A DNA stretch of 64,000 nt from contig NZ_CP086108.1 in the NCBI RefSeq assembly GCF_016765655.2, positions 186,001 through 250,000 on the forward strand, written 5' to 3'. Positions 36,234 through 59,228 of the stretch are shown here, piece by piece. Each line of letters begins with the position of its first letter. Position 1 is the stretch's first letter. The notes under the pieces were generated by a model, which saw nothing but the letters and a program-made list of their open reading frames with translations, had not been told where the DNA came from and ran no database searches. This stretch comes from Skermanella mucosa (GTDB taxonomy: Bacteria > Pseudomonadota > Alphaproteobacteria > Azospirillales > Azospirillaceae). The position numbers and the translations under genes were made by a program.

Positions 36234-36350
36234 ACACCTGACCTCAAGTCCGGACCAAAAATACGCATTGTCAATCAACGTTATTATGTAAAAAATTAAA
36301 ATTTTCTGTTTTTCTTCTCCAGCATCAACCTGATCTGGAAGTCTCCCGCG

Positions 36351-39601: not shown

Positions 39602-40813
39602 TCAATCACTTTCCCGCACAATTTCTTTGTTAGCTATCCAACTATTTTTCATGAGCAGGCCCGCGATCAACACCACGTAACCGGCGCTGAGCGCGATCAT
39701 CAGGGTCCCGAAGCCGTATTCAACCAGCAGGAAGCCGCCCGCCGCCAGCAGGACCGCGTTGCAGACGCCGAAATTCCGCTCCATCGCGGAGAGCAGCAGG
39801 ATGCGTTCCTGGGGGCCGAGCGCCCCCATCCGGATGTTGCCCATGGTCACCGGGCGCACGCCGCCGGAACCGAGGCCGAGCAGGCCGATGGCGACCAGGC
39901 CGACCAGGAAATAATCCACCCCCCGCTCGGCGAACCAGGCACTGAAGCCGAACAGCCACATGGATCCGAGCATGCAGCCGATCGTGACGCCCATCAGCGC
40001 GTTCAGCCCGAAGCGCTTCAGGAAGGCGTTGCAGTACAGGGCCGCGATGAACCCCGCCATCGTGAACAGCCCAAGGACCGAGCCGAACAGGAACGGATCG
40101 ACTCCCAGCATGATGAAGAAGAACGGCAGGAAGCCTACGAAGGGAGCCATGGTGAAGGCCCGGGACAGCGAGTAGAAATCCATCCAGAACGACTGGTCCG
40201 GGTCCGGCCGGAGCTTCACCCGGACGGGCGGCGTGCCGGCGGCGGCCGGTGCCGCCCTGTCCTCCCGGATCGCGAAGATCAGCGCCGCCGACAGCAGGTT
40301 GGTGGCGAGCGCCGCGTAGAACGGCCAGTGCGCCTCGTAATCGTAGAGGATGCTGCCGATGCAGCCCGCCACCAGGGTGGCGATGAACATCAGGCTCTGC
40401 GAGCGGCTCTGGACCCGCATGAACAGGTCGTTCCCGCCGGTCGCGGTGACGGTCCGCAGCAGGCTGGAATCGGTCGAGATCGCGAGGCTGAAGCCGGTTC
40501 CGCCGATCACCTGGGCGGCCATCACGATCCAGAAGTCGGTGCCGCCGACGCTGGTCCCGACGATCACCAGGAACAGCCCGGCGCCCTTCATCAGCTCGCC
40601 CAGCGCCACGACGGCCTTCTGCCTCATGTGGCGCAGCAGGGCGCTGCCGAGCGTCGCCGTGACCGTGGTGACCAGGCCGTAGACGACCAGCAATGCGATC
40701 GTGTTGTACAGGCCCATCTGGACCATGTGCAGGTGCAGGAACAGCACGGGAAGCTGGAAATAGAGCCGGGAGACCACCCGGTACGAGATGAACAGGAGGA
40801 TGTCCCGCCGCAT
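39602..40813 (-). CDS. MFS transporter, probable exporter of the biosynthetic cluster
   Basis: A 403-residue, very hydrophobic protein with about 12 membrane segments and no other domain. The first half contains ALLRHMRQKAVVALGELMKG (motif A position) and VMAAQVIGGTGFSLAISTDSSLL. It is the last gene of the operon and follows the HlyD-like gene with about 15 bp between the HlyD stop and its ATG (a GTG overlapping that stop is also possible). The pairing of an MFS pump with a membrane-fusion protein suggests export of the cluster's product. Specificity is unknown. Confidence 0.82.
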   Translation of the reverse strand: MRRDILLFISYRVVSRLYFQLPVLFLHLHMVQMGLYNTIALLVVYGLVTTVTATLGSALLRHMRQKAVVALGELMKGAGLFLVIVGTSVGGTDFWIVMAAQVIGGTGFSLAISTDSSLLRTVTATGGNDLFMRVQSRSQSLMFIATLVAGCIGSILYDYEAHWPFYAALATNLLSAALIFAIREDRAAPAAAGTPPVRVKLRPDPDQSFWMDFYSLSRAFTMAPFVGFLPFFFIMLGVDPFLFGSVLGLFTMAGFIAALYCNAFLKRFGLNALMGVTIGCMLGSMWLFGFSAWFAERGVDYFLVGLVAIGLLGLGSGGVRPVTMGNIRMGALGPQERILLLSAMERNFGVCNAVLLAAGGFLLVEYGFGTLMIALSAGYVVLIAGLLMKNSWIANKEIVRESD

Positions 40814-40827
40814 GGTTCCGGCCCCGC

Positions 40828-42054
40828 TCACCGCAGCACGACCTCGACGCTGCTCCCGGCGAAGCAGAATTTCTCGGGCGCCAAGTCGGTTCCCCAGTCC
40901 ACCCTGACCCGCGCCGTCATGACCCGCACGGGAAGCTGGCGCCGCGCGATCTCCGGCGGCGGATCGACCACGTACTGGCCGACGGTGACCCGCCCGGCCC
41001 CGGCGCGCAGGGTCTCGATGGTGCCTTGCCACGTCCTGTCGCCGTAGAGCAGCTTCACCGTGACCGGCTCGCCGATCCCCATCCGGGCGGTGTCGGCCTC
41101 GTCGAAGAAGGCCTCGACCCAGACGTCGCGGCAATCGACCAGCTGGGCGATCCCGCCGTTGGCGGCGACGTTCTCGCCGGAATGGGCCTCGACCGACCAG
41201 ATGACGCCGGGTTTCTGGGATCGCACCGGGGTGCGCTGCTGGCTGGCGAGCTGCTCGCGCACCACGGCCAGCTCCCGGCGGGCGCCGTCCAGCCGGCGCT
41301 CCGTGTCCGCTCCCGCCTGCTCCAGGTCGACCAGTTCGGTGTGCAGGTCGCGGAGCCGGCTTTCCGGCTCGCTCAGGGTCCGCGGCCCGTCGAGCTGGAG
41401 ACCGGCGGCCGACGCCTCCAGCCCCGCCTCGAACTGGGCCAGCCGCGCCTTCTGCGCGCTGACGTTGGCGTTGGCCTCGCGGCCGGTGCCGACCACCCGC
41501 TCCAGCGCCACCCCGCTGGACACCCCGCGCTCGTACAGCTTCTCGGTCCGGCGCACCTCCGACGCGGCGACCTCGGCGCCGACCACGGCCCGGCGGAGCT
41601 CCTCGCGGACCGTGTTGATCTGCGAGCGGTAGTAGCGCTCCTGGAGGCGCTTCTGCTCCTCGTTCTCCCGGGCGAAGCGGGCGACCAGCTGCTGCCGCGC
41701 CTCGATGCGGAGCTTCGTCCCGGCGAGCTGCTGCTCCAGCGTCGCGACCAGCGCCTCGGTCTGGCGCTCCTGGACCAGGAGCTGGGAGACCAGCGGGTTC
41801 TCCACGTGGCTCTCGATCATCCCGAGCGTGTCCGACGCCTCGACCGACCGGCCGACGCGCACCTCGGGGTCCAGGTCGAGGCGGCCGGCGATCGGTGCCC
41901 GCACGACCGTGACGCCGGTATTGACGAAGGCCTGGATGCTGCGCGGCGGCCGCAGCACCCACCAGTAGAAGGCGACGCTTCCGGCCATGCCGACGGCGGC
42001 CAGGATCGCGGCGAAGCGCAGGATGCGCGAGGCTTTGGGGGACTCCGACGTCAT
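40828..42054 (-). CDS. HlyD family membrane-fusion protein
   Basis: A 408-residue periplasmic adaptor. An N-terminal membrane anchor (ILRFAAILAAVGMAGSVAFYWW) is followed by a biotinyl-lipoyl half (TVVRAPIAGRLDL), a long coiled-coil hairpin (about 85-290) and the second lipoyl/beta-barrel half (SQKPGVIWSVEAHSGENVAANGGIAQLVD). Such EmrA/HlyD adaptors bridge inner-membrane pumps to the outer membrane. Its partner is most likely the MFS protein encoded next. Confidence 0.88.
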   Translation of the reverse strand: MTSESPKASRILRFAAILAAVGMAGSVAFYWWVLRPPRSIQAFVNTGVTVVRAPIAGRLDLDPEVRVGRSVEASDTLGMIESHVENPLVSQLLVQERQTEALVATLEQQLAGTKLRIEARQQLVARFARENEEQKRLQERYYRSQINTVREELRRAVVGAEVAASEVRRTEKLYERGVSSGVALERVVGTGREANANVSAQKARLAQFEAGLEASAAGLQLDGPRTLSEPESRLRDLHTELVDLEQAGADTERRLDGARRELAVVREQLASQQRTPVRSQKPGVIWSVEAHSGENVAANGGIAQLVDCRDVWVEAFFDEADTARMGIGEPVTVKLLYGDRTWQGTIETLRAGAGRVTVGQYVVDPPPEIARRQLPVRVMTARVRVDWGTDLAPEKFCFAGSSVEVVLR

Positions 42055-42068
42055 GGCTGGCTTTCCGG

Positions 42069-42710
42069 TCAGGCGGCTTGCAGGCCGGGCAGGACCGCGC
42101 TCAGGTCCTCGGCCGAGATGTCGCCCTGGCGCAGGATGCGCGGCGGGCCGGACAGGTCGACGATGGTGCTCGACTTCGTCGTGCCGTCCGCTCCGCCCGC
42201 CAGGATATAGTCCACCGCGTCGCCGACCTGGGCGAGCGCCAGTTCCAGGTCGACCAGCACGCCGTCCGCCTGCCCCGACAGGTTGGCCGAGGTCATGGCG
42301 ACCGGCCGCTTCAGGTAGGACAGCAGGCCCCGCAGCACCGGGTTGGCGATGCAGCCGATCGCGACCGTCGGGCCGCCGCGCACGATGGTGTCGGGCACGG
42401 CGGCGTTGCGCGGCACCACGATGTTGAGCGGACCGGGCCAGAACCGCCCGACCACCCGGTCCACCGGCCCCGCGTCGGCGACGTCGGCATAGTTGCGCCA
42501 ATCGCCGGGCTCGCGGACGAACAGGGTCAGCGCCTGGGTCGGCGGCCGGCGCTTGATCTCGAACGCCCGGCGGATCGCGTCGTCGTTCCAGGGATCGAGC
42601 GTCAGCGCGAGGTTGGTGTCGCTGGGCGCTATGACGACGCCGCCCTCGGCGACGCAACGCGCCGCGATGGCGAAACTTTCCTCGCAGGGGTGGAGTATCG
42701 GTGCCGGCAT
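42069..42710 (-). CDS. Divergent TsaC/YrdC/Sua5-like protein
   Basis: A 213-residue YrdC-fold protein. Canonical TsaC makes threonylcarbamoyl-AMP from threonine, bicarbonate and ATP for tRNA t6A. The fold markers remain: KRRP at 53-56, PGPLNIVVPR at 92-101, TSANLSG at 140-146 and SSTIVDLSG at 180-188. The substrate-binding P-T-D-T-x-Y-G-L element is changed to PSDTNLAL (29-36), and the usual V-R-V-P block reads AIGCIANP (117-124), losing the conserved Arg. It lies inside the biosynthetic operon, 14 bp from the HlyD gene and 11 bp from the AMP-ligase gene. I infer a specialised paralogue that may activate a carbamoyl group for another acceptor; the housekeeping role cannot be excluded. Confidence 0.75.
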   Translation of the reverse strand: MPAPILHPCEESFAIAARCVAEGGVVIAPSDTNLALTLDPWNDDAIRRAFEIKRRPPTQALTLFVREPGDWRNYADVADAGPVDRVVGRFWPGPLNIVVPRNAAVPDTIVRGGPTVAIGCIANPVLRGLLSYLKRPVAMTSANLSGQADGVLVDLELALAQVGDAVDYILAGGADGTTKSSTIVDLSGPPRILRQGDISAEDLSAVLPGLQAA

Positions 42711-42721
42711 GGCAGCAGTTC

Positions 42722-44224
42722 CTATTTGTTGACGACCTTGAGGACGTCGGTAAAGCGGAAATCGCGGGGAATTTCTATCAGGCGCAGGCGTTGCCGGCAC
42801 CATTGCGTCAATTCGGCAGGGGTCGGCTCAAGGGCGCCGATCTCCACCTGTATGTCGGCGACCGGAACCTCTCCCAGGTCGCGGTCCGGCTTCGGGCTCA
42901 CGACCGCCTGGGCGATCAGGGGATGCTGCAGCAGGATCTCGCGGATATATCCCGCCGACAGCTTCTCGCCGCCTGACACGATCACCTTCTTCCGCCGCTC
43001 CAGGTACCGGTAGGTGCCGGTGGCCGGGTCGCGGATGAAGACGTCGTGGGTGCGCAGCCACTCCGCGCCGTCGCCGGCGGGTCGGATGAAGTCGTCGCGC
43101 ACGAAGCCGGACTCGCCGAGATAGCCCAGCATGGCGGTCGGCGTCTTCACCAGCAGCTCGCCGATCTCCAGCCCGTCGCGGTGCTCGGGTTCGTGCAGCG
43201 TGACCTCGATCCCTTCCATCGGCCGGCCGGCCGTGTTCCACAGGGTGCGGTCGTCGCCCAGCAGGTTGGTGAAAACCCGGGGGCCGGCTTCGGACAGGCC
43301 GTAGGTCAGGTAGATCTTGCCGTCGTAGACCCGGCGCAGCGCCTCCAGGTCGGCCGGCATCACCCGGTCGCCGCCGATGGTCAGCTTCCTGAGGGACTCC
43401 GGGAAGCGCTTCCCGACCGCCAGCAGCTTGCGGAGCTGGAACGGCGTGGTCGCGAACAGGCTGACCTGCTCCTCGTCGCAGACCTTGAACCAGTTGGCCG
43501 CCGAGAACGGCTGCTCGGACAGGATGATGTCCTTGTGCGACTGCATCGTCGCGATCACCCCGGCGACCAGGCCGTAGGAGAAATAGGCCGGCAGCGCCAG
43601 CAGCATGCGCCCGCCCGGCTCGAACTCGATCGACTCCGCATGGAGCCGCGCGTTCAGGAAGGCGCTCTCGGCGCGGTGGACCACCGCCTTCGGCACGCCG
43701 GTCGAGCCGGAGGACAGGATGATCAGGCAGCCCGCCAGCTCCGGCCGGGGACCGAGATAACGGCGGTCGAACAGCAGCGCCGTGTCGTCGCCGAACGGAT
43801 GCTCGGCCTGCTCCATCTCGGAGAAGTGCCGCGTCCGCGCCGCCGGCGCCACGACCGCGCCGGGCTTCACCAGCTCGCGCACCGCGTTGTAGCTGGCGGT
43901 GGGCAGCAGGTTGGAGGTCGGCACCGGCACCGCGCCGATCCGCAGCAGGGCCAGCAGGTGGCGGAGGAAGACCAGGTTGGTGCCGCAGGACAGCATGACC
44001 GGCGTCCCTTCGGAAACGCCGAGGGCCAGCCACTTCTCGGCGTCCAGGTCCGCCTGGGCGACCAGGTCGGACAGGCGGTGGATCGTGAACGGCGAGCGGG
44101 TCCGGTCCACCACGACGCTGTCGCTGGTCCGGGCCCACCGGAACCAGTCCTCGACCGATGGCGCGGATCGTTCCGGCGCCGTCCTCTCCAGCAGATCTTC
44201 AAGCATAGTCAAACACTCCGTCAT
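42722..44224 (-). CDS. AMP-dependent acyl ligase (ANL superfamily)
   Basis: A 500-residue adenylate-forming enzyme. The phosphate-binding loop is ILSSGSTGVPKAVVHR near 170-185, the A5-like motif is YGLSEAGPRVF, and the A7/A8 region reads WLRTHDVFIRD and LERRKKVIVSGGEKLS. The protein ends at VLKVVNK, so the catalytic Lys of the A10 motif is the last residue. The core W-x-x-T-G-D appears as RTHD, a small departure. It probably activates a starter or product acyl group and loads it on the cluster ACP. Its ATG overlaps the stop of the chain-length-factor-like gene. Confidence 0.85.
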   Translation of the reverse strand: MTECLTMLEDLLERTAPERSAPSVEDWFRWARTSDSVVVDRTRSPFTIHRLSDLVAQADLDAEKWLALGVSEGTPVMLSCGTNLVFLRHLLALLRIGAVPVPTSNLLPTASYNAVRELVKPGAVVAPAARTRHFSEMEQAEHPFGDDTALLFDRRYLGPRPELAGCLIILSSGSTGVPKAVVHRAESAFLNARLHAESIEFEPGGRMLLALPAYFSYGLVAGVIATMQSHKDIILSEQPFSAANWFKVCDEEQVSLFATTPFQLRKLLAVGKRFPESLRKLTIGGDRVMPADLEALRRVYDGKIYLTYGLSEAGPRVFTNLLGDDRTLWNTAGRPMEGIEVTLHEPEHRDGLEIGELLVKTPTAMLGYLGESGFVRDDFIRPAGDGAEWLRTHDVFIRDPATGTYRYLERRKKVIVSGGEKLSAGYIREILLQHPLIAQAVVSPKPDRDLGEVPVADIQVEIGALEPTPAELTQWCRQRLRLIEIPRDFRFTDVLKVVNK

Positions 44225-44991
44225 GCCTGTGTCAGGTCGACGCGCCGGACCGCGGCGGCGTCGGGAAAATCGAACCGCGCCGGGCGCGGGGACGCGCCGT
44301 CCTCCAGCGCCGATGCCAGGGCGAAGGGAAGCGCCAGCTCCGGAAGCCGGGCCAGCAGCAGCGCGGCGGCGGAGCCCGGCAGCGGGAGCGGCGCCGGCTC
44401 GCTCTCCAGGGCGGCGCCGAGGCGGAGCGCCGGGCGTCCCGCCATCGGCCGGGCGGTCACCGCCAGGAAGGCGCCTGCCCCACCCTTGCCGCTTTCCTCG
44501 ACCGCGACGGCGCCGATGATCATGGCGTCGGCGTCTCCCCGCATCATGTCGAAGGCGGCGATCCCCAGGGCGTCGCCCAGGTTGGCCGATCTCCCCGCCA
44601 GGGCCAGGGAGGGGCCGTTGACGCCGGCAGCCATCGCGGCGACGCCGGCGCAGACATTGTAGCCGGAGCCGGAGAACTGCACCGGCGAGCGGCTGCCGCG
44701 GCGGACCTTGCCCGAGAAGCTGTTGAGGATCTGGTAGTTGCCGATCCGGCTCGCGATCACGATGCCGATCCGCAGGTTGGAAACGCCGTCCAGGCAGGGC
44801 CGCAGCCGGGCGCAGGCCGCGGCGGACAGGGCGGTCGCCGGATCGATCTCCAGTACCTTCCCCTTCAGCGCGGGCGGGCGCAGGACCGACCGGTCCAGGG
44901 CTCCGCCCGCCGCCATGGCGGCCAGCCCGTCCGGGCCGAACCCGTGCAGCGTTCCGGTCAGGGCTCCCGCCACTCCGAGGGTCGCGATCAT
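44221..44991 (-). CDS. Ketosynthase chain-length-factor-like protein
   Basis: A 256-residue protein resembling the N-terminal half of a beta-ketoacyl synthase, of the ketoacyl-synt_2 / chain-length-factor type found in aryl-polyene-like clusters. The block SPVQFSGSGYNVCAGVAAMA and then NGPSLALAGRSANLGDAL align with the KS core, but the nucleophilic Cys position is Ser135 and the C-terminal His pair is absent. It should therefore be non-condensing and act with the complete KS encoded at 48503-49657. It overlaps both neighbours by 4 bp. Confidence 0.72.
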   Translation of the reverse strand: MIATLGVAGALTGTLHGFGPDGLAAMAAGGALDRSVLRPPALKGKVLEIDPATALSAAACARLRPCLDGVSNLRIGIVIASRIGNYQILNSFSGKVRRGSRSPVQFSGSGYNVCAGVAAMAAGVNGPSLALAGRSANLGDALGIAAFDMMRGDADAMIIGAVAVEESGKGGAGAFLAVTARPMAGRPALRLGAALESEPAPLPLPGSAAALLLARLPELALPFALASALEDGASPRPARFDFPDAAAVRRVDLTQA

Positions 44992-45401
44992 GCCGCCTCC
45001 TCCGCCTTTTCCGGGGTGCCTGCCCGCTGCTCGATGGCCGAGGTGGTGAAATGCCCGGACGCCACCACGGCGCCGTCGGGATCGACCAGCTCGCACCGGA
45101 CGGAACCGAACTGCCCCCGGCCGCCGACCGTGGCGACCAGCCGATACCGGCGCCCCTCCGGGACCGGCGCCAGGCCGAGGTCGGAGATCTGGGCCGGGAC
45201 CGTGCGCCGGCCGTCGAACAGGACGGCCGAGCTGGCGCGGCAGGCGTGCTGGGCCATGGCCTCGACCACCAGGTACGGCGCGATGCCGGGGCCGGCGAAG
45301 CCGGGATCGTGCAGGACGGCGTAGCTCTCCGGCCGGAACGGCGCGGTGAACACGCCGTCCTCCGCCCGCTGCTCGCCGCACAGGTCCAGGAAGCGCGTCA
45401 T
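44988..45401 (-). CDS. Hot-dog fold dehydratase-like protein (ApeP-like)
   Basis: A 137-residue hot-dog protein. The central helix LVVEAMAQHACRA retains Glu47 and the AMAQ pattern of 3-hydroxyacyl-ACP dehydratases, preceded by His31 in VLHDPGFAGPG. The His-to-Glu spacing (16) differs from FabZ (14) and the HFPG motif is missing, which is closer to ApeP-type proteins. It likely acts on ACP-bound 3-hydroxyacyl chains, alone or with the other dehydratase-like protein of the operon. Confidence 0.7.
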   Translation of the reverse strand: MTRFLDLCGEQRAEDGVFTAPFRPESYAVLHDPGFAGPGIAPYLVVEAMAQHACRASSAVLFDGRRTVPAQISDLGLAPVPEGRRYRLVATVGGRGQFGSVRCELVDPDGAVVASGHFTTSAIEQRAGTPEKAEEAA

Positions 45402-46201
45402 GCCGCACCCGCCCGGGCGTCGGCCTCGCTCCAGGAGCCCATGATGTTGTAGCCGGCATCGACCCACACGACCGACCCGGTGGTCGAGCGCGACATGTCG
45501 CTCAGCAGGAACAGGGCCGAATTGCCGATGTCCTCCAGCGAGACGTTGTAGGGCAGCGGCGACTGGCTGGCCCGCTTCTCCAGCATCTCGCGGAAGTTGG
45601 GCAATCCCAGCGCGGCCAGGGTGCGCACCGGTCCGGCCGAGATCACGTTGACCCGGATGCCGTCGGCGCCCAGGTCGGCGGCCAGGTAGCGGGCGGCCGA
45701 TTCCAGCGCGGCCTTGGCGACGCCCATCAGGTTGTAGCCGACGCAGACCCGCTCCGACCCCAGGTAGGACAGCGACAGCACGCTGGCGCCCGGCTTGAAG
45801 TGTGGCCGGGCGTGGCGGCACAGCGAGACCAGCGAATAGGCGCTGACGTCCATGGTCAGCTCGAAGGCGGCCCGGCTGGTGTTGATGAAACCGTTGGCCA
45901 GCTCGTCGCCGGGGGCGAAGGCCACGGCGTGGACGATGAAGTCGATCCCGCCATGGCGCTCGGCGAAGGCGTCGCAGGCGGCCTTGACCTGGCCGTCGTC
46001 GCGCACGTCGCACGGCGCCAGGAACTCGACGCCCAGGCGCGGCGCCAGTCCCCTCAGCTGCTTCTCGATCTGGGCGTTCGCATAGGTGAGGCCGATCGTG
46101 GCCCCCTGGTTCCGCAAGGTCTGAGCGATGCCCCAGGCGATCGACCGCTGGTTCGCGACCCCGACGATCAGCCCGGCCTTGCCGGCCATCATTCCAGTCA
46201 T
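45398..46201 (-). CDS. Enoyl-ACP reductase, FabI type
   Basis: A 267-residue NAD(P)H-dependent short-chain reductase. The cofactor motif GVANQRSIAWGIAQ and the active-site YLGSERVCVGYNLMGVAKAALE (Tyr-x6-Lys) and NVISAGPVRTLAA segments are FabI signatures. It reduces trans-2-enoyl-ACP. Its presence in this operon implies that the assembly line makes at least partly saturated chains. An additional ATG at 46192 is possible. The gene overlaps the ApeP-like gene by 4 bp. Confidence 0.93.
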   Translation of the reverse strand: MTGMMAGKAGLIVGVANQRSIAWGIAQTLRNQGATIGLTYANAQIEKQLRGLAPRLGVEFLAPCDVRDDGQVKAACDAFAERHGGIDFIVHAVAFAPGDELANGFINTSRAAFELTMDVSAYSLVSLCRHARPHFKPGASVLSLSYLGSERVCVGYNLMGVAKAALESAARYLAADLGADGIRVNVISAGPVRTLAALGLPNFREMLEKRASQSPLPYNVSLEDIGNSALFLLSDMSRSTTGSVVWVDAGYNIMGSWSEADARAGAA

Positions 46202-46259
46202 TTTCTCGTTCTTTCCTGTATCAAGCCCGTATCTTGAATTCCGTCCCGGATGGTTTGCC

Positions 46260-47021
46260 TCAGCAGACGATGTGCGCGCCGCCGCCGACCGGCAGGGTGA
46301 CGCCGATCAGCAGCGGGCGCCGCGCGGCCAGCATCAGAACGGCGTCCGCGACCTCCGCGGCCGTGGTCAGCCGGCGCAGCGGGATGCGCGACAGCAGGTC
46401 GCGGCGCGCCGGCCCGTCCAGGAACCCGGCGGTCAGCTCGGTCTCCACGAAGCCCGGCGCCACGGTGTTGACCGCGATGTTCGAGCGGGCGCATTCCACC
46501 GCCAGCGACTGGCCGAAGCGCTCGACCGCGGCCTTGGAGGCGCCGTACATCGCGTTGCCCGGACGGACGTTGCCGCTGGCCAGCGAGGATATGTTGACGA
46601 TGTCGCCGTAGCGGACGCGCCGCATCTGCGGCAGCACCGCCCGGCAGAAATGCACGGTGGCGCACAGGTTGTTGTCGATCACCGAGCTGACCTCGTCGGC
46701 GCCGACGCGGTCCACCAGGTTGTCCCGCGTGATGCCGGCATTGTTGACCAGCAGCGACACCGGCCCCTCCGCCTGGACCGAGCCGACGAAGGCCGAGACG
46801 GCGGAGGCGTCGGTGCCGTCTACGCCGGAGCCCCGGCAGCGGCCCGGCAGTTCCTCCTCCAGGGAGCGGGCCTCCGCCTCGCTGGTCCGGAAGGTGAAGC
46901 GCACGTCGTAGCCGGCCTCGACCAGCGACTTGACGAGCACCCGCCCGATGCCGCGGCTGCCGCCGGTCACGATCGCGAGCCGCGCCGGCATGCTCTCGGG
47001 GTTGACGGCCTGCGCGGTCAT
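46260..47021 (-). CDS. 3-oxoacyl-ACP reductase, FabG type
   Basis: A 253-residue SDR enzyme with TGGSRGIG near residue 19, NNAGITRDNL, the catalytic SSLASGNVRPGNAMYGASKAAVE (Ser-Tyr-x3-Lys) and NTVAPGFVETEL. It reduces 3-oxoacyl-ACP with NADPH. The start overlaps the stop of the FabZ-like gene. A 58-bp gap separates it from the fabI-like gene, the largest internal gap in this part of the operon. Confidence 0.93.
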   Translation of the reverse strand: MTAQAVNPESMPARLAIVTGGSRGIGRVLVKSLVEAGYDVRFTFRTSEAEARSLEEELPGRCRGSGVDGTDASAVSAFVGSVQAEGPVSLLVNNAGITRDNLVDRVGADEVSSVIDNNLCATVHFCRAVLPQMRRVRYGDIVNISSLASGNVRPGNAMYGASKAAVERFGQSLAVECARSNIAVNTVAPGFVETELTAGFLDGPARRDLLSRIPLRRLTTAAEVADAVLMLAARRPLLIGVTLPVGGGAHIVC

Positions 47022-47452
47022 GGCGCCACCTGCGCCAGCAGGATCGAGCCGTTGCCGAGCGGCGTGCCCTCGCCATCGCCGACGGTGTAGCGGACCTCCG
47101 CCGGCGCGCCGGCGGGAACGCCGTCCGGCGCGATGGTCGCCGTGATCGTCAGGATCCGGCCGGGCAGGCTGGGCCGGCGGAAGCTGGCGCGCTTGACGCC
47201 CGCCACCCGCCAGGCCGCGGGGCCGCCCTCCATCATCGCCCGGCCGGTCGCGAACACGCTGTTCAGCACCATCGATCCGGGATAAATCGGCATGCCGGGG
47301 AAATGCTCGGTGAAGATCGGGTCGCTGAACGACAGGTACTTCTGCGCGACGCATTTCCGGCCCGGCTCGCGCTCGACCACCCGGTCGATCGGCCAGTCGC
47401 GCGGAACGACGCCCGGCGCGGTGTCGGCCAGGGGAATGTCAGGATTTGACAT
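47018..47452 (-). CDS. FabZ-like hot-dog protein with altered active site
   Basis: A 144-residue hot-dog protein with the FabZ motif HFPGMPIYPG at 50-59, so the catalytic His is present. Fourteen residues later, where FabZ has the catalytic Glu, this protein has Asn64 (SMVLNSVFATG). It could be a weak or altered dehydratase, or a partner that needs the Glu of the ApeP-like protein. It overlaps both the FabG-like and reductase genes. Confidence 0.75.
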   Translation of the reverse strand: MSNPDIPLADTAPGVVPRDWPIDRVVEREPGRKCVAQKYLSFSDPIFTEHFPGMPIYPGSMVLNSVFATGRAMMEGGPAAWRVAGVKRASFRRPSLPGRILTITATIAPDGVPAGAPAEVRYTVGDGEGTPLGNGSILLAQVAP

Positions 47453-48506
47453 AGGCGGTGATCACGGCCTCCAGGCCGCTCCTTTCGAGCTTCGGGAGAT
47501 CGCCGACCGCCTCCGCCAGCCGGCGCATGTCGAAGCTGTGCCGGGTGCCCATGAAGCGGTTGTTGTCGGCGTTCACCTTGTTGAAGACCTGGTTGAAGCT
47601 TTTCTCGCCCGGTCCGTAGGCGATGCGCATGCGTCCGCCGGTGACCTCCTCGAAGGTCCGGAAATGCTCGGCCACGGTCATCAGGCCGGTATCGCAGATG
47701 TGGAAGACCTCGCGGTCCCCGGGTGCCGCGCGGCGGCGGAGCCTGGCGCACAGGTCGCCCATGTGGTCGATATGGATCACCGGGAAGGTGCGTTCCGGAT
47801 CAATGTCCACGTGGAACACCGGCTCGCGGCCGAGGAACCGCTTGAACGCCTGGAGATAGGAGTAATAGCCGTAGCGGGTGTCGTTGACCCAGCCGGTGAC
47901 GCTGTGCCCGATCACCGAGCCGAGCCGCAGCACGGTCAGCGGGATCCCCGTCTCGGAGGAGACGTGCCACAGCATGTATTCCGCCATGGTCTTCGACACG
48001 GTGTAGGGATTGATCGCCTCGAAATCCTCCAGCGGCCGTTCCGGGACCAGGCAGCCCGCGGAATCGCGGTCGCCCGGGCCGGCGACGCCGGTGGTCGAGA
48101 CGAAATAGAAGCGTCCGATCCGGCCCGTCGCGCGCATCAGCCGCGTCGTGCCGACCGCGTTGAAGGCGAAGGCCTCCGCGATCCGCAGCGGGTCGTAGCT
48201 CATGTGGGCCGCGACATGCCACAGCTCGTCGGCCTCGACGCCGGCGAGGATCTCCGAGGCGGCCTCGGCCCGCGTCAAGTCGATCGCGACCGGCTCGATC
48301 GCCTCGACAAGGCGGGGGGAGCCGTTGAAGCCGGCCAGCGCTTTGGAAACCGCCTGGCGGACCCGGCTGCCGTCGGGATCGTCGTGGGCCAGCGACAGGA
48401 TGCGGAGCGGCTCGTCGCCCAGCAGGAAGGAGGAGACCAGCGCGCTTCCGACGAAGCCGCTCGCCCCGGTGACGGCGATGGTCTTGCGCGGGACGGGGCG
48501 GGTCAT
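47439..48506 (-). CDS. NAD-dependent epimerase / thioester-reductase-like protein
   Basis: A 355-residue extended SDR with TGASGFVGSAL (Rossmann G-x-x-G-x-x-G) at 12-22, LWHVAAHMSYDP, STTGVAGPG and the catalytic YTVSKTMAEYML. The hydrophobic WHVAAHMSYD region and the size resemble the NAD-binding-4 (male-sterility) reductase domains that release acyl-ACP as aldehyde or alcohol, but a sugar epimerase-type role is also possible. In this operon reductive release of the acyl chain is the attractive reading. Confidence 0.7.
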   Translation of the reverse strand: MTRPVPRKTIAVTGASGFVGSALVSSFLLGDEPLRILSLAHDDPDGSRVRQAVSKALAGFNGSPRLVEAIEPVAIDLTRAEAASEILAGVEADELWHVAAHMSYDPLRIAEAFAFNAVGTTRLMRATGRIGRFYFVSTTGVAGPGDRDSAGCLVPERPLEDFEAINPYTVSKTMAEYMLWHVSSETGIPLTVLRLGSVIGHSVTGWVNDTRYGYYSYLQAFKRFLGREPVFHVDIDPERTFPVIHIDHMGDLCARLRRRAAPGDREVFHICDTGLMTVAEHFRTFEEVTGGRMRIAYGPGEKSFNQVFNKVNADNNRFMGTRHSFDMRRLAEAVGDLPKLERSGLEAVITAYVKS

Positions 48507-49657
48507 GACGGCGACGCCTCCGGCCGGCGGAACAGCAGCGCCACGTTGGCTCCGCCGAACCCGTAGGTGACGCTCAGGGCCGCCCGGCCGGGCGGCAGCG
48601 GCGCCCGGTCGCCCGGCAGCACGACGGCGGCGCGGCGCCAGTCCTCGTGGACGGCGGCGAGGCCGGAGGTCGGCGGCGCCTCGCCGCGTTCCAGAGCCAG
48701 GATCGCGATGCCCGCCTCGATCGCGCCGGTGGCGCCCAGCGTGTGGCCGAACGCCGCCTTGGTGGAGGAGATCGCCGGCCGGTGCTTCCCGAACATCCCG
48801 GCATAGACCTGCGCCTCCATGGCGTCGTTCACCGGGGTGCCGGAACCATGGGCGTTGACATAGGCGATGTCGGCGGCCGTACCGCCGTCCTGGGCCAGGG
48901 CGTTGTCGATCGCCCGCATGGCCCCCGCGCCGGTCAGGTCGGGCGAGGTCAGGGTATTGGTGTCGGTGGTCGAGGCGCGGCCGGTCAGGACCGAGCGCAC
49001 GCGGGCGCCGCGGCGCGCCGCGTCGGCCGGCGCCTCCAGCACCAGCAGGGCGGCGCCCTCGCCCAGGGCGGTGCCGTCGCCGTCCGCCGAGAACGGCGTG
49101 CAGCGGGGCGGCGACAGCGTGCCGAGCGCGGAATGGCCGACCATCTTGTAGATGTCCAGCACGTCGACCCCGCCGCACAGCACGACGTCGAAACCGGCGA
49201 AATCGATCAGGTCGGCGCCGGTCGCGATGGCGTCGCTGCCGGACGAGCAGGCCGACGACACGCTGATCACCGGAAGGTCCAGCCCCAGCCCGCCGAGCAG
49301 CGGCCTTATATAGTGGTCCAGCTCGACCGGGCCGTTCTCGGTCTGGAAGATGTTGCCGAAGCTCGATCCGACGACCAGGGCCGCCCGGCGGCCCGCCAGG
49401 TCGCCGATCGCCAGGTCGGCGTCGGCCAGGGCCGCGCGCAGGGCGCCCTCCAGCAGCGCCGCCATGCGGGCGCCGCCGTCGGACGGCAGCCCGTCCTTGA
49501 TCTCGCCGCCGGAGCCGTTCAGGCACTGGGCGGTATCGAACGCCTCGATCGGGGCCACGCCGGATTCCCCGGCCATCAGCCGCGACCAGACCGCGTCCTG
49601 GTCCCTGCCGAGGCAGGTGACCAGGCCGGCGCCGGTGACGACGGGTTGGCAGGTCAT
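48503..49657 (-). CDS. Beta-ketoacyl-ACP synthase (FabF-like), complete active site
   Basis: A 384-residue condensing enzyme with a full catalytic set: Cys137 in SVSSACSSGSDAI, His270 in VNAHGSGTPVND, Lys300 and His305 in STKAAFGHTLGATG. The C-terminal GFGGANVALLF is typical. It is the only complete ketosynthase in the cluster and probably forms a heterodimer with the chain-length-factor-like protein. It overlaps the reductase and thioesterase genes by 4 bp each. Confidence 0.92.
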   Translation of the reverse strand: MTCQPVVTGAGLVTCLGRDQDAVWSRLMAGESGVAPIEAFDTAQCLNGSGGEIKDGLPSDGGARMAALLEGALRAALADADLAIGDLAGRRAALVVGSSFGNIFQTENGPVELDHYIRPLLGGLGLDLPVISVSSACSSGSDAIATGADLIDFAGFDVVLCGGVDVLDIYKMVGHSALGTLSPPRCTPFSADGDGTALGEGAALLVLEAPADAARRGARVRSVLTGRASTTDTNTLTSPDLTGAGAMRAIDNALAQDGGTAADIAYVNAHGSGTPVNDAMEAQVYAGMFGKHRPAISSTKAAFGHTLGATGAIEAGIAILALERGEAPPTSGLAAVHEDWRRAAVVLPGDRAPLPPGRAALSVTYGFGGANVALLFRRPEASPS

Positions 49658-50118
49658 GCCGCCCTCCCCCGCGCCAGCGCCGCGCGCACCTCGTCCGGAA
49701 CAGGCGTCAGGGCGCCGGTGGCCGACAGGACGAAGGCGATGGTCAGCCGCCCGCGCGACAGGACGCGACCGTTGGCCTGCACGGCGCAGCCCAGGATCAT
49801 GCTGGACCGGTCGAACTCCACCGACCGGATCGACGCCTCGATCGGGTCGCCCAGCCGGGCCGACGAGACGTAGGCCATCTGGGCGCGGCCGACCCGGATC
49901 TCGACGGTGCCGTCGCAGAAGCGGCCCGGCCCCAGGCCGGCCTTCTCGAACAGCTCCATCAGGGCGGCGCTCACCCAGCGCAGGTAGTTCGAGAAATGGA
50001 CGACGTTGAAGCCGTCCACCTCGGCCGGGCACACCCGGTGGCTGTAGAGCACGTCCGCTACCGCCAGACGGACCCGTGCCGGAGGGGCTGCCTCCGCGAT
50101 GATTTCCGAGCCGGTCAT
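49654..50118 (-). CDS. Hot-dog thioesterase (4HBT-like)
   Basis: A 154-residue protein with the 4HBT-type segment CPAEVDGFNVVHFSNYLRWVS, where the acidic residue before GFNVVHFSNYL takes the position of the catalytic Asp, then GDPIEASIRSVEFDRSSMIL. ApeK/FcbC-like thioesterases of this size are common in type II polyketide and aryl-polyene clusters, where they edit or release ACP-bound chains. It starts 5 bp after the ACP stop. Confidence 0.8.
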   Translation of the reverse strand: MTGSEIIAEAAPPARVRLAVADVLYSHRVCPAEVDGFNVVHFSNYLRWVSAALMELFEKAGLGPGRFCDGTVEIRVGRAQMAYVSSARLGDPIEASIRSVEFDRSSMILGCAVQANGRVLSRGRLTIAFVLSATGALTPVPDEVRAALARGRAA

Positions 50119-50123
50119 GGTGG

Positions 50124-50408
50124 TCAGCCCAGCTTGGACAGGACCAGGGCGACGACGGTGTCGAGGCTGCGGAAATTCTCCGGGACGAATTCGTCCTGGC
50201 TGATGCTGACGCCGTACTTGTCCTCCAGGTGGGCCATCAGCTCGGTGAAGCCCAGGCTGTCGACGCCGATCTCGCTGGCCAGCCCCATGTCGGTCCGGAT
50301 GGTATCGACGGGCATGTCCACGAACAGCTGGTCCACCAGGAACTGCTTCAGCTCCTGCTTCATGACGTCCTGGTCGAGAGCTTCCTTGGTGAGCGACATC
50401 GGAGACAC
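50124..50408 (-). CDS. Acyl carrier protein
   Basis: A 94-residue ACP. The phosphopantetheine site is Ser51 in SEIGVDSLGFTELMAHLE, in the usual DSL context, within a four-helix bundle; the protein is acidic as expected. It carries the growing chain for the cluster's enzymes. An internal ATG at 50399 (MSLTKEAL) is possible. A 175-bp gap with hairpins separates it from the HbpS-like gene upstream, so it may have its own promoter. Confidence 0.93.
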   Translation of the reverse strand: MSPMSLTKEALDQDVMKQELKQFLVDQLFVDMPVDTIRTDMGLASEIGVDSLGFTELMAHLEDKYGVSISQDEFVPENFRSLDTVVALVLSKLG

Positions 50409-50478
50409 CTTTCAAAATGGTCCGGGCCGGTCTTGATGCCGGGCCGGGGGAAGGAATTCAGGGCGAGCGGGAGCGTCG

Positions 50479-50492
50479 CCCTCCGCGGAGGG
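50479..50492. repeat. GC-rich palindrome between ACP and HbpS-like genes
   Basis: CCCTCCGCGGAGGG is a perfect 14-bp palindrome, preceded by a GGGCGA...TCGCCC pair. It may attenuate transcription from the HbpS-like gene into the biosynthetic operon. No T-run is present. Confidence 0.35.
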
Positions 50493-50583
50493 CCTTGGAA
50501 ACAGGCCGGTGTTGTTTCGCTTGGACGGGATCGGCGGCCAGCCGGCGGGAGCCGGTCAGGAGGCGCCGTTCAGGGGATTGCGG

Positions 50584-51006
50584 TCAGGAAACGGCCGCCA
50601 GGGCCGCCTCGGCGACCTTCATGTCGTCGCTGTAGTGGCCGCCGCTGACGCCGATGGCTCCGATGACGGCGTCCCCGGCCTTGATCGGATAGCCGCCGCC
50701 GAAGACGACCAGGCCGTCGATGTGCGGGGCGCCCAGGGCCAGCGGCGCGTCGTCTTTGATGAAATCGTGCCAGACATGGGTCGGGATGCCGAAGCCGGCG
50801 GCGGTCTTGGCCTTGTTGACGGCGACCTGGATCGCGAGCAGCGGCGCGCCGTCCATGCGGACGAAGGCCTTCTGCACGCCGCTCTCGTCGGCGATGCTGA
50901 TCGCCATGGGAATGCCCAGCTCGACTGCCTTGGCCTCCGCCGCCGCGATCATCCGCCCGGCCATCGCCGTGCCGATGCTCTTCTTGGTCAGGATGTCGGA
51001 ACTCAT
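50584..51006 (-). CDS. HbpS/GlcG family protein (DUF336)
   Basis: A 140-residue protein of the GlcG/HbpS fold. The landmarks are AEAKAVELGIPMAISIADESG, FVRMDGAPLLAIQVAVNKAKTAAGF, and the glycine-rich FGGGYPIKAGDAVIGAIGVSGGHYSDD. Relatives bind haem or sit with glycolate and diol metabolism; the role here is unknown. ATG 51006 is chosen since family similarity begins there. It is the most upstream gene of the minus-strand block and a 20-bp imperfect palindrome lies about 65-85 bp before it. Confidence 0.85.
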   Translation of the reverse strand: MSSDILTKKSIGTAMAGRMIAAAEAKAVELGIPMAISIADESGVQKAFVRMDGAPLLAIQVAVNKAKTAAGFGIPTHVWHDFIKDDAPLALGAPHIDGLVVFGGGYPIKAGDAVIGAIGVSGGHYSDDMKVAEAALAAVS

Positions 51007-51578
51007 TCGCCAATGTCTCCTTCGGTACAGGGCCCGGTATGCGGAAGGCATCCGGCCGGGAAAAACTCTATCGAACGTCGTACTACGTTCGGCCGATGAG
51101 AAAGTTTCTATACTTATCTTAGGAATGAGTCAAACTAGAAAGAGAGCTAAATTTTAGAGAGTTTTATTGCAGTTGCAGGTGGGTGGGCTGGTATCCTAAA
51201 AACAAGAAAAAGTTACAGATAATACACCCGTATGGATATTTCTGGGCTGCGACTCGCTGAAACTCCAAGGAAAATGTCGAAACCGACATAATGGCCGCCC
51301 CCGGTCCCGGCCGTCGCGGGCAAGCCGCCGGAACAACCGCAAGCTCATCAGATCCGATCGATATCTATCGAAGATAATCCGGTGCCTCCTGAAAAGGCGA
51401 TTCTGTCGCAGACCGTTCGCTCACCAGATTGTGCGCAACCGCCGCACTTGCCCACTGCGGGAATAATTTGCGATTCATTCGATTTATATGCGATAGAGCC
51501 TATCCCGAACGGCCGAGCCGGGAGAGGCCGGCGCGCAGCACCCCGGCCGAGGGACCGGACCCGCAGAAGAGGTGATCG
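51007..51578. other. Divergent promoter region, AT-rich
   Basis: A 570-bp gap between the minus-strand biosynthetic block and the plus-strand isomerase-type operon. From about 51095 to 51260 it is AT-rich (for example CTAAATTTTAGAGAG). Besides the palindrome at 51072 it contains GATCGATATCTATCGA near 51355. AAGAGGTGAT precedes the 51579 ATG. I see no RNA gene or coding frame with support. Confidence 0.4.
51072..51091. promoter_or_regulatory. 20-bp near-perfect palindrome upstream of the HbpS-like gene
   Basis: CGAACGT and ACGTTCG form a 7-bp inverted repeat around CGTACT, whose centre GTAC is also palindromic. Size and symmetry suit a dimeric regulator. It lies where a promoter for the HbpS-biosynthetic block is expected. 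Confidence 0.45.
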
Positions 51579-52880
51579 ATGGGACAGACTTTGACGGAGA
51601 AGATCCTCGCGCGCGGCGCGGGCCGCGCGTCGGTGCGGCCGGGGGAGACGATATGGGTGCAGGCCGACCTGTTCATGACCCATGACGTGTTCGGACCCGA
51701 GGTCTTCCGGATCTTCGAGCGCGAGTTCGGCGCCGACGCGGCCGCCTGGGACCGCGACAAGGTCGTCGTCATCCCCGACCACTACATCTTCACGGAAGAC
51801 CCGCTGGCGCGCCGCAACATCGACGTGCTGGCCGGCTTCGTCGAGAAGCACGGCATCACCCACTTCTTCAAGCCGGGCACCCCGGACTACAAGGGCGTCT
51901 GCCACGTCACCCTGGCGTCGGAGGGCTTCAACCGGCCCGGCGGCATCCTGTTCGGCACGGACTCGCACACCTGCACCGCCGGCGCCTTCGGCATGTTCGC
52001 GACCGGCATCGGCAACACCGACGGCGCCTTCGTGCTGGGCACCGGCCGGCAGTGGCTGAAGGTGCCGGAGACCATGCGGTTCGACTTCGACGGCTCGCTG
52101 CCGCCCTACCTGATGGCCAAGGACCTGATCCTGCGGATCATCGGCGACATCGGCTGCGACGGCGCCGCCTACCGCGCGATGGAGTTCGGCGGCGACGGCA
52201 TCGCCTCGCTCTCCATGGAGGAGCGGATGACGCTCTGCAACATGGTGATCGAGGCCGGCGGCAAGAACGGCATCGTCGCCGCCGATTCCGTGACCGAGGC
52301 CTATATGCGCGGGCGCGGCAAGGCCGTGGGCGAGTTCCTGGAGCCCGATCCCGACGCCGACTATCACAGCCGCCGCCGCTACGTCAGCGCCGACCTCGCC
52401 CCCGGCGTCGCCAAGCCCCACAGCCCGGACAATTACGAGGAGGCGCGCAACCTCGGCGACGTCGCGCTCGACCGCTGCTACATCGGCTCCTGCACCGGCG
52501 GCAAGATCGAGGATTTCACCGCAGCCGCCCGCATCCTGGCGGGACGCAAGGTCGCGATCGACACCTTCGTGGTGCCAGCCACGACCGACGTCGAGCGCGC
52601 GCTGGCGACCGAGGCGGTGGACGGAAGGCCGCTGCTCGACATCTTCGCCGAGGCCGGCTGCCGGGTCGGCCCGCCGTCCTGCGGCGCCTGCCTCGGCGGA
52701 CCGCTCGACACCTTCGGCCGGGCGCTTGACACGCAGAAGGTGCTCTCCACCACCAACCGCAATTTCCCCGGCCGCATGGGCGCGCGCAGCGCCGAGGTCT
52801 TCCTGGCCAGCCCGCTGACGGTCGCCGCCAGCGCCGTGACCGGCCGCATCACCGACCCGCGCGAATTCCTGAAGCACTGA
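51579..52880 (+). CDS. LeuC-like hydro-lyase large subunit (first copy)
   Basis: A 433-residue aconitase-superfamily large subunit. The three iron-sulfur cysteines are in IGSCTGGKIEDF (about 305) and PSCGACLGG (about 367 and 370); TDSHTCTAGAFG is the usual active-site block. These enzymes dehydrate and rehydrate 2- or 3-hydroxy acids such as isopropylmalate, homocitrate or methylcitrate-like compounds. The 3-isopropylmalate dehydratase label is possible, but the gene sits in an operon with a second, different large subunit and two small subunits, which is unusual for leucine synthesis. Confidence 0.85.
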   Translation: MGQTLTEKILARGAGRASVRPGETIWVQADLFMTHDVFGPEVFRIFEREFGADAAAWDRDKVVVIPDHYIFTEDPLARRNIDVLAGFVEKHGITHFFKPGTPDYKGVCHVTLASEGFNRPGGILFGTDSHTCTAGAFGMFATGIGNTDGAFVLGTGRQWLKVPETMRFDFDGSLPPYLMAKDLILRIIGDIGCDGAAYRAMEFGGDGIASLSMEERMTLCNMVIEAGGKNGIVAADSVTEAYMRGRGKAVGEFLEPDPDADYHSRRRYVSADLAPGVAKPHSPDNYEEARNLGDVALDRCYIGSCTGGKIEDFTAAARILAGRKVAIDTFVVPATTDVERALATEAVDGRPLLDIFAEAGCRVGPPSCGACLGGPLDTFGRALDTQKVLSTTNRNFPGRMGARSAEVFLASPLTVAASAVTGRITDPREFLKH

Positions 52881-52900
52881 AGAACCGGGAGGATTCCACA

Positions 52901-54169: not shown

Positions 54170-54678
54170 CCGACAAGACCATTGCGGACCCCATCGCCGG
54201 CCGGAGCTGGAAGCTCGGCCACGACATCGACACCGACCAGATCATCCCGTCCCAGTACCTGGTGCTGGGATCGCTGGCCCAGATGGCGACCCACTGCCTG
54301 GAGACCCAGCGCGGCGACTTCGCCAAGGAATGCCGTCCGGGCGACATCGTCGTCGCCGGGCGCAACTTCGGCTGCGGCTCCAGCCGCGAGCAGGCGCCCA
54401 TCGTCCTGAAGACGCTGGGGGTCGGCGCGATCGTGGCGCTGGGCTACGCCCGCATCTTCGCCCGCAACGCGATCAACAACGCGCTGCCGGTGATCGTGCT
54501 TCCGGAAGCGGAGCAGATTGCCGACGGCAGCCGGCTGCGGCTCGACCTCGCGGAGGGCGTGCTGGAGGACCTGGACGCCGGCAGGACCTACCGCTTCGAG
54601 CCCCTCGCCGGCCTGCCCGGCAGGATCCTGGAGGCCGGCGGCCTGATCAACTACCTGCGCGCGGAGCAGACGGCATGA
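54166..54678 (+). CDS. LeuD-like hydro-lyase small subunit (first copy)
   Basis: A 170-residue swivel-domain subunit with DIDTDQIIPSQYLV and RNFGCGSSREQAPIVLKTLGV, both family signatures. The loop after DQIIPSQYL decides substrate choice in LeuD and homoaconitase small subunits and differs here from the second copy. It overlaps its neighbours by 4 bp on both sides. Confidence 0.88.
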   Translation: MTDKTIADPIAGRSWKLGHDIDTDQIIPSQYLVLGSLAQMATHCLETQRGDFAKECRPGDIVVAGRNFGCGSSREQAPIVLKTLGVGAIVALGYARIFARNAINNALPVIVLPEAEQIADGSRLRLDLAEGVLEDLDAGRTYRFEPLAGLPGRILEAGGLINYLRAEQTA

Positions 54679-57157: not shown

Positions 57158-57414
57158 GGTCGGCGACGACCATACACCTTGTCGAAGGCCGGCGGCACCC
57201 AAGACACGTGAATGCACCCCGAGGGCACCGGCAGGGCCGCCGAACGCCTGGAACGCCTCGTGACGGAAAGGTTCGGGCGCGAACCGTACCCGGAGGAGAA
57301 TGCCGTCCGAAACCCCGGCCGGGTCAGAAGGTCGCGGCGGCCGTCCGACCCTTGCCGATGGTTGCGAAAGTATGCTGTTGTTCGCGCGACACCCCTCGAC
57401 CGGCGCCCGCGACC

Positions 57415-58452: not shown

Positions 58453-58606
58453 GTCGGCCTTCGCCCGTCAGGGCGAACGCCGACACCCTGCACCGGCGCT
58501 CCGCCACGCTTTCGGCGTGAGCCGGCGCCCGAGGCCGGCATGCGACGACTGCCACCCATCGGCGCCGCACCCGCCTCACCACCAGGGCGCTTGAAAAATT
58601 TCCGAT

Positions 58607-58637
58607 CATAGGATAAAAAGCCGTTATCGATCCTATG
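58607..58637. promoter_or_regulatory. Inverted repeat upstream of the terminase-like gene
   Basis: CATAGGAT and ATCCTATG are perfect 8-bp arms separated by 15 AT-rich bases, 20-50 bp before the ATG at 58657. Position and symmetry suit an operator or a 5'-leader hairpin. Confidence 0.4.
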
Positions 58638-59196: not shown

Positions 59197-59228
59197 CTCG
59201 ACTTTGGCCATCCTAAATGGGACTTTGA

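Follow-up and report, generated by a model that had tools for sequence, protein, structure and literature searches.

A Skermanella mucosa gene cluster whose core is related to ketosynthase-cyclization factor polyketide synthases and recurs in Anaeromicropila populeti

The stretch of DNA considered here, called the window, comprises 64,000 nucleotides of the genome of Skermanella mucosa (assembly GCF_016765655.2; 7.84 Mb in 5 contigs), namely, positions 186,001 to 250,000 of contig NZ_CP086108.1. It contains an operon of 14 minus-strand genes (39602 to 51006) that encodes an acyl carrier protein (ACP), a ketosynthase (KS), a short KS partner of the chain length factor (CLF) type, an adenylate-forming ligase, reductases, two hot-dog proteins (DH1 and DH2), and putative tailoring and export proteins. 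As judged by sequence, the closest characterized relatives of its core are the type II polyketide synthases (PKSs) of cispentacin and coronafacic acid, which pair a KS with a cyclization factor (CYF). The original prediction, made from the letters of the window without database searches, had placed 14 codirectional genes here, and this is borne out, with a Pfam family that fits the given name for 13 of the 14, the exception being DH2. Its description of the genes as mostly joined by 4-base overlaps holds for 6 of the 13 junctions; one other is a 14-bp overlap, and six are gaps of 5 to 175 bp. The limits that it gave were too narrow, since they missed four aconitase-family genes (LeuC1, LeuC2, LeuD1, and LeuD2; 51579 to 55229) that are part of the cluster and bring its total to 18 genes. 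These four are included because two such pairs sit inside the homologous cluster of Anaeromicropila populeti, and because LeuC2 relatives track the operon, being found (E ≤ 1e-60) only in the two of five Skermanella genomes that carry it.

Table 1. Genes and features of the cluster (positions in the window; IPMI, isopropylmalate isomerase; SDR, short-chain dehydrogenase/reductase; MFS, major facilitator superfamily)
Feature	Position	Strand	Evidence
HbpS/GlcG-like protein, 140 aa, accessory	50584..51006	-	PF03928 E 1.2e-34; SB22 88.6% identical
Acyl carrier protein, AmcB type	50124..50408	-	NCBIfam cispen_ACP_AmcB 87.4 bits
4HBT_2 hot-dog thioesterase, YbgC-like	49654..50118	-	PF13279 E 4.1e-13
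Ketosynthase (KS), AmcF-like	48503..49657	-	AmcF model 322.4 bits; tree; residues
Extended SDR, thioester-reductase-like	47439..48506	-	TIGR01746 68 bits; MxaA PDB match
DH1, FabZ/AmcE-like hot-dog protein	47018..47452	-	fabZ 51.5 bits, AmcE 19.9
FabG-like ketoreductase	46260..47021	-	PF00106 E 2.7e-46
FabI-type enoyl reductase dedicated to cluster	45398..46201	-	FabI models up to 318 bits
DH2, orphan hot-dog protein	44988..45401	-	Predicted structure, Foldseek, alignment of 3
CLF/CYF-type KS partner, 256 aa	44221..44991	-	PF00109 21.8 bits; AmcG 36.7 bits
Adenylate-forming ligase, AmcH-like	42722..44224	-	AmcH 241.2 bits; tree
TsaC/YrdC-like protein, altered motifs	42069..42710	-	PF01300 E 9.8e-40
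HlyD/EmrA-type periplasmic adaptor	40828..42054	-	PF13437 E 6.8e-13
MFS exporter	39602..40813	-	PF07690 E 7.3e-11
LeuC1, IPMI/homoaconitase-family large subunit	51579..52880	+	hacA_fam 430 bits; SB22 91%
LeuC2, IPMI/homoaconitase-family large subunit	52901..54169	+	hacA_fam 498 bits
LeuD1, small subunit	54166..54678	+	Similarity only: SB22 85%, Anaeromicropila LeuD1 50%
LeuD2, small subunit	54675..55229	+	leud model 112 bits, below its cut-off; SB22 87%
Divergent intergenic region, presumed promoters of both arms	51007..51578	.	Position between arms

The definition of the KS-CYF class dates from 2023 and is based on cispentacin, with coronafacate included by homology (Hibi 2023, PMC10698177). 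According to the main text of that paper, AmcH loads 2-oxoglutarate onto AmcB, and AmcF-AmcG adds one C2 unit and cyclizes the product, losing water, to 3-oxocyclopent-1-ene-1,2-dicarboxyl-ACP; AmcE then decarboxylates it, the FabI of fatty acid synthesis reduces the ring, AmcC aminates, and AmcD releases the product. The four core proteins of the Skermanella operon score best with models of this set: the KS with AmcF (322.4 bits versus 227.8 for FabF), the CLF with AmcG (36.7 bits; the next NCBIfam model gives 27.3), the ligase with AmcH (241.2 bits; next, 155.6), and the ACP with AmcB, where it is the sole core protein to exceed its Amc cut-off (80 bits). The Anaeromicropila core ranks alike, with 89.8 bits for AmcB, 295.7 for AmcF, 27.0 for AmcG, and 212.6 for AmcH.

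Scanning genome contigs with an alignment of four KSs yielded 348 matches to the pattern and 205 relatives, and 80 loci were kept. The 81 loci examined, 62 of which span at least 18 kb, are those of Skermanella stibiiresistens SB22 and Anaeromicropila, the 78 other kept loci, and Azospirillum sp. B510. In a midpoint-rooted KS tree of 26 rows, which drew on 18 of the 78 other loci and held no aryl-polyene KS, the KSs of the two Skermanella species and Anaeromicropila group together (98/95) next to a set of 16 KSs of the KS-CYF type (100/100), and the resulting 19 are separate from seven rows of the FabF/NodE type (100/100). Three Chloroflexota loci group with FabF. The KS residues Cys137, His270, Lys300, and His305 are present and common to the KS-CYF clade, and the KS and ligase trees agree in shape. 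A profile of the three cassette CLFs matches 32 CYFs (taken as the open reading frame [ORF] directly after the KS at each locus) with an E value of 3.9e-10 in hhalign, seven FabF-type KSs with 3.3e-7, and the KS-CYF-type KSs poorly. As read from these trees and profiles, the cluster belongs by descent to the broad KS-CYF family, as a separate lineage.

The Azospirillum sp. B510 set is 42% identical to the cluster in the KS, 47% in the ACP, 32% in the ligase, and 27% in the CLF, the last reaching an E value of 1.8e-5 in a one-to-one comparison with the B510 CYF. This set, on plasmid pAB510a (locus L021, 14182 to 26235), is a coronafacic acid (CFA)-type cassette of ACP, AmcE-like protein, KS, CYF, and ligase; it is unannotated in the genome collection used and overlaps a reading frame of 3157 aa with another KS match in it. 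Another short PKS set was seen on a plasmid of Streptomyces sp. NBC_00690 (L020, 11968 to 16818), with an LnmK-like acyltransferase/decarboxylase, an SDR (27% identical to the cluster SDR), an ACP, a KS, and an acyl-CoA dehydrogenase.

The reductases of the operon are related to those of fatty acid synthesis, with FabG reaching 190.7 bits with its best FabG model, below the cut-off, and FabI likewise staying below the FabI equivalog cut-offs. A recent duplication of FabI is rejected, since the protein has only 48% identity with its closest counterpart among three further FabI-like proteins encoded in the genome. These three genes and a fabG-fabF locus on contig C1 also show that the operon is not the housekeeping fatty acid synthase, in keeping with the original prediction.

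The two hot-dog proteins differ in the residues that they keep. The catalytic residues of FabZ are a His and a Glu. DH1 keeps the His in the motif EHFP...IYPGS and has Asn or Ala at the Glu position; its profile scores (fabZ 51.5 bits, AmcE 19.9; for the Anaeromicropila protein, 60.9 and 41.4) are all below cut-off. The AmcE-type proteins of KS-CYF loci, which mostly read HFPERA[IV][FY]P[GA]S..L.QA.AQ or carry an HLPERG... variant, have Gln at this position and thus, as DH1, a His without the Glu. DH2 matches no Pfam or NCBIfam model. It has an invariant Glu47 in E[AG][MF]AQ, without a conserved His, in all three species (3/3), where DH1 has the His without the Glu. The AlphaFold2 model of DH2 has a hot-dog fold (pLDDT 83.6), for which Foldseek retrieves FabZ and thioesterases, with the ApeI:P dehydratase heterocomplex behind them at rank 41. 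To speak of two atypical dehydratases, as the original prediction did, is thus reasonable for DH2, although a fold alone is no proof of such an activity. Two readings fit these residues: DH1 may be an AmcE-like decarboxylase, or DH1 and DH2 may share a split His/Glu site.

Release of the product would fall to one of two proteins. The SDR scores far below the cut-off of the thioester reductase domain model (TIGR01746, 68 bits versus 213), and among PDB entries it matches MxaA, a terminal reductase domain, and no other at E ≤ 1e-8; Tyr168 and Lys172 are invariant in the three sequences. It may release the product reductively, while the thioesterase may act in release or editing.

The TsaC-like protein (121.5 bits versus a curated cut-off of 123.2) is 55% identical to the Anaeromicropila copy, against 36% and 28% to the TsaC proteins found elsewhere in the two genomes, and a recent duplication is rejected on the 36% that separates it from the other TsaC of its genome. 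All six housekeeping TsaC proteins (6/6) have PTETVYGLG where the three operon copies (3/3) have PSDTN[L/V]ALT; in the latter, the AVR region has become IGC, and K.RP and SAN are kept. From these motifs, the protein looks like a repurposed enzyme and a conserved, specialized member of the cluster. By analogy with the TsaC reaction, it is proposed to carry out an ATP- and bicarbonate-dependent carbamoylation, in line with the possibly carbamoylated product of the original prediction.

LeuC1 and LeuC2 both exceed the cut-off of the hacA family (385.7 bits) and keep the cluster-ligand cysteine motifs in the alignment. The IPMI-type proteins scanned, which did not include LeuD1, all missed the equivalog models for a single substrate. 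The substrates of aconitase-family enzymes are cis-olefinic 1,2-dicarboxylates and the hydrates of these. The KS-CYF intermediate 3-oxocyclopent-1-ene-1,2-dicarboxylate is such a compound, which makes a role of the two pairs after cyclization attractive by analogy; supply of the starter would be an alternative. The recognition region of the small subunit sets the substrate in the IPMI/homoaconitase family (PMC7308503). The stretches taken for this region are unlike one another (QYLVLG versus HHLVYS), and the two pairs may therefore act on different acids.

S. stibiiresistens SB22 keeps all 18 genes (18/18), at 69 to 94% identity and in the same order, with ACP to MFS (72 to 94%) on one contig and HbpS and the four Leu genes (85 to 92%) at the end of another. 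The dN/dS values against SB22 (NG86) range over the 18 genes from 0.085 for FabI, the lowest, to 0.40 for DH2. This constraint and the conserved gene order argue that the cluster is not a chance assembly. Beyond these two genomes, it is rare. Of the order's 82 genomes, two have a full-length CLF, while eight further matches (E ≤ 0.001; 19.6 to 24.5 bits) have partial coverage. Among 385 genomes sampled from the class, the CLF is found (E ≤ 1e-6) only in the source genome itself. In plasmid records, tblastn gave no match to the CLF and only places below 60% identity for the ligase, KS, SDR, and MFS; scans of viral contigs, made mainly for another purpose, gave no relatives. Among the 79 loci other than those of SB22 and Anaeromicropila (the 78 others kept and B510), SDR, DH2, CLF, TsaC, and MFS have no match at E ≤ 1e-3 in a search across these loci, and FabI matches reach at most 52 bits at 24 to 29% identity, the general SDR background. 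A clear FabI among the loci examined is thus confined to the three loci of Skermanella and Anaeromicropila, and LeuC/D matches to the Anaeromicropila locus, the SB22 copies being on another contig.

This locus (L048), from A. populeti 743A (Lachnospiraceae), was the best of the 80 kept in the KS scan after that of SB22 (81%). The species was formerly named Clostridium populeti. Twelve of the 14 operon genes recur in it, with identities of 55% for TsaC, 53% for ACP, 50% for FabG and FabI, 44% for KS, SDR, and DH1, 42% for the thioesterase, 38% for the ligase, 33% for MFS and CLF, and 30% for DH2; HlyD and HbpS have no match in the locus. Inside the cluster are also two LeuD-LeuC pairs and a metallo-hydrolase. 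One pair (named LeuC1 and LeuD1 in Anaeromicropila) is clearly orthologous to LeuC2/LeuD1 of Skermanella (47% and 50%). Skermanella LeuC1, at 36 to 38% to the Anaeromicropila large subunits, is without a clear ortholog, since its 38% identity with the second Anaeromicropila pair does not exceed that with its own paralog. At E ≤ 1e-40, the SDR profile finds a single genome, Anaeromicropila itself, among 397 sampled from its family, and again this one alone among 398 sampled from the phylum.

The cassette is therefore rare, patchy, and common to two phyla, for which horizontal transfer between the phyla is the simplest explanation, despite a base composition without foreign sign (GC content of 69.4% in the cluster versus 69.2% in the window, on which a foreign composition is rejected).

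A further biosynthetic-looking gene set lies a few kilobases from the Anaeromicropila cluster (L140, 6290 to 16863). About 4 to 7 kb beyond the cluster, it has a third LeuC/D pair and a homocitrate/isopropylmalate-synthase-like gene; the set also holds electron transfer flavoprotein (Etf), MbdU-like, NifB-like radical SAM, MenE-like ligase, and ketoacyl-ACP synthase III (KAS III)-like genes (Etf and KAS III labeled by eye, the others from scores below curated cut-offs).

From this gene set and its kinship, we infer, with somewhat better than even confidence, a horizontally shared pathway of the KS-CYF type that would build, reduce, tailor, and export a small carbocycle. The product is most likely a small reduced carbocycle made from a 2-oxo-dicarboxylic acid and one malonyl unit. 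The AmcH-like ligase would activate the acid (2-oxoglutarate or a close relative) and load it on the AmcB-like ACP, and the KS with its short partner would add one malonyl unit and close the ring. The cluster FabI would reduce the ring enone, the step that the fatty acid synthesis FabI takes in cispentacin formation, and FabG would turn the ring ketone into an alcohol, in place of the transamination of the cispentacin pathway. DH1, perhaps with DH2, would remove CO2 (as AmcE) or water, and the thioesterase or the thioester-reductase-like SDR would release the product. The two aconitase-family hydro-lyases could either provide the starter or add water to the cyclic cis-dicarboxylate. A carbamoyl-type group could come from the TsaC-like enzyme, and MFS and HlyD could export the product.

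Several observations weigh against this pathway. The KS (322.4/325 bits), CLF (36.7/80), and ligase (241.2/370) are under the AmcF, AmcG, and AmcH cut-offs. The CLF, at 256 aa, is longer than the CYFs (134 to 225 aa), has only five near-invariant positions in common with them, and is predicted with a pLDDT of 37.5. The ligase shares 39 of the positions near-invariant in 16 AmcH-type ligases, but 21 such positions, including three Arg, one His, and one Asp, differ in all three cassette ligases, so the starter may not be 2-oxoglutarate, although these differences by themselves do not settle its identity. The ligase tree has very long outgroups, for which the program warns of possibly false long-branch joins. 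Clear orthology across the phyla holds for just one IPMI-type pair, no aminotransferase (AmcC) was recognized among the 18 genes, and DH1 scores higher with FabZ than with AmcE in both Skermanella and Anaeromicropila.

The set of ketoreductase, dehydratase, and enoyl reductase types would, moreover, also suit ordinary chain reduction. The KS/CLF, FabG, DH1/DH2, and FabI could iterate on a ligase-loaded primer to give a linear reduced acyl chain, which the SDR would turn into an exported aldehyde or alcohol. The presence of all three types in one operon, the thioester-reductase-like SDR, and the preference of DH1 for FabZ speak for such a chain, whereas the KS, CLF, ligase, and ACP are nearest to ring-forming KS-CYF proteins and neither an acyltransferase nor a second ACP was recognized among the 18 genes; we regard it as rather unlikely. 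Because the core matches characterized small-ring-forming chemistry in kind, the reduced lipid or fatty alcohol first suggested as the product is less likely than a small carbocycle.

A larger ring is a more doubtful variant, in which the IPMI/homoaconitase pairs would take part in lengthening a 2-oxo acid to 2-oxoadipate and the KS-CYF would close a six-membered ring. It would account for the two HacAB-family pairs in both clusters and the ligase residue differences, and it draws on NifV elsewhere in the Skermanella genome and on the third pair and synthase-like gene near the Anaeromicropila cluster. However, no synthase or decarboxylating dehydrogenase was seen beside the Skermanella cluster, and those near the Anaeromicropila cluster could belong to a cluster of their own. 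That FabI and TsaC, both extra copies of housekeeping-type proteins, are self-resistance versions of the product's targets rather than pathway enzymes is very improbable, since both are distant from their counterparts elsewhere in the genome (48% and 36%) yet conserved across the phyla (50% and 55%), with the TsaC-like motif changes common to both, and so appear to be old specialized lineages, not spare targets.

For the carbocycle pathway, the in-cluster FabI, the second hot-dog protein, the thioester-reductase-like SDR, the altered-motif TsaC-like enzyme, and the aconitase-family pairs are new for the KS-CYF class. Hibi et al. state that around amcG clusters they found no shared genes that could take over from FabD and FabI (PMC10698177); the present cluster would be a case of an enoyl reductase traveling with a KS-CYF cassette. 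As a bolder and only tentative proposal, possible rather than probable, the cassette would be a second, unseen branch of ring-forming type II PKS shared across phyla, making a new carbocyclic scaffold (possibly not five-membered). The ring would be reduced by the FabI of the cassette, cyclic cis-dicarboxylates would be the substrates of the aconitase-family hydro-lyases, and a YrdC-fold enzyme that once served tRNA modification would attach a carbamoyl-type group to the natural product. A separate lineage with different tailoring would show that KS-CYF chemistry is older and wider and would allow the determinants of ring size and starter choice to be tested on a natural example. Repurposed TsaC-like and aconitase-family enzymes in a polyketide pathway would, if true, be unusual enzymology.

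In the surroundings of the cluster, no sigma-70-like site was found in the intergenic region between the two arms (51007 to 51578). The Leu genes are adjoined by a PEBP-family gene and an AraC-type regulator; YhgA-like (PF04754) and DDE_5 transposase-type genes (57208 to 60933, plus strand) are located to the right of the cluster. On the other side, a PAS/histidine kinase ORF (36325 to 39204, minus strand) seems to end in another frame (receiver domain in 36351 to 37046; labels by eye), and the homologous SB22 stretch is a 998-aa frame, suggesting a possible frameshift or sequencing error. A HlyD-like ORF (61927 to 63324, plus strand; label by eye) seems to change frame and continue as the ORF at 62768 to 63292, also a possible frameshift. 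A 53-bp stretch at 11561 to 11613, 92% identical to one just downstream of SB22 LeuD2 (L133, 3721 to 3773), may be a dispersed repeat.

Among the papers listed in literature searches for this cluster, Hibi 2023 (PMC10698177) was the sole relevant one, the main text of which (as distinct from its supplementary lists) names none of Skermanella, Clostridium, and Anaeromicropila. Within these searches, the claim of an unrecognized type II PKS/fatty acid synthase-like operon with its own enoyl reductase stands. As to a match with a characterized pathway, the core is like the KS-CYF systems in kind, but the defining features of cispentacin and coronafacate biosynthesis are missing. Like the cispentacin genes amcB to amcH, the cluster has an AmcB-type ACP, an AmcF-like KS, an AmcG-like short partner, an AmcH-like ligase, FabI chemistry, a thioesterase, and a hot-dog protein with the His but not the Glu of FabZ. 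Unlike them, it is a separate lineage under the AmcF, AmcG, and AmcH cut-offs with its own FabI and FabG, and it adds DH2, the thioester-reductase-like SDR, the TsaC-like protein, two IPMI-type pairs, and MFS/HlyD; identity with the cispentacin pathway is rejected on these cut-offs and on the lack of a recognized aminotransferase. It shares its core families with the coronafacic acid cassette cfa1-5 (compared through the B510 set) and differs in its extra reductases and tailoring genes. Identity with that pathway is likewise rejected, as no modular type I PKS was found among the genes of 39602 to 55229.

Aryl-polyene clusters have two ACPs, acyltransferases, and an MMPL transporter and lack an enoyl reductase. 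The cluster resembles them in its KS and partner, ketoreductase, and two hot-dog proteins (ApeI:P-like) and differs in having FabI, one ACP, and a KS nearer to AmcF; acyltransferases, an MMPL transporter, and a second ACP were not recognized among the 18 genes, as originally predicted. The original comparison with aryl-polyene clusters, taken as one of nearest kin, is not supported, since the KS, CLF, ligase, and ACP score best with the Amc models and the KS groups with the KS-CYF clade in a tree that held no aryl-polyene KS; the kinship is rejected on the model scores. With type II fatty acid synthase, finally, the cluster has the FabG, FabZ-like, FabI, and FabF folds in common, and it is set apart by its AmcF-like KS, its own loading ligase, and the housekeeping genes elsewhere in the genome.

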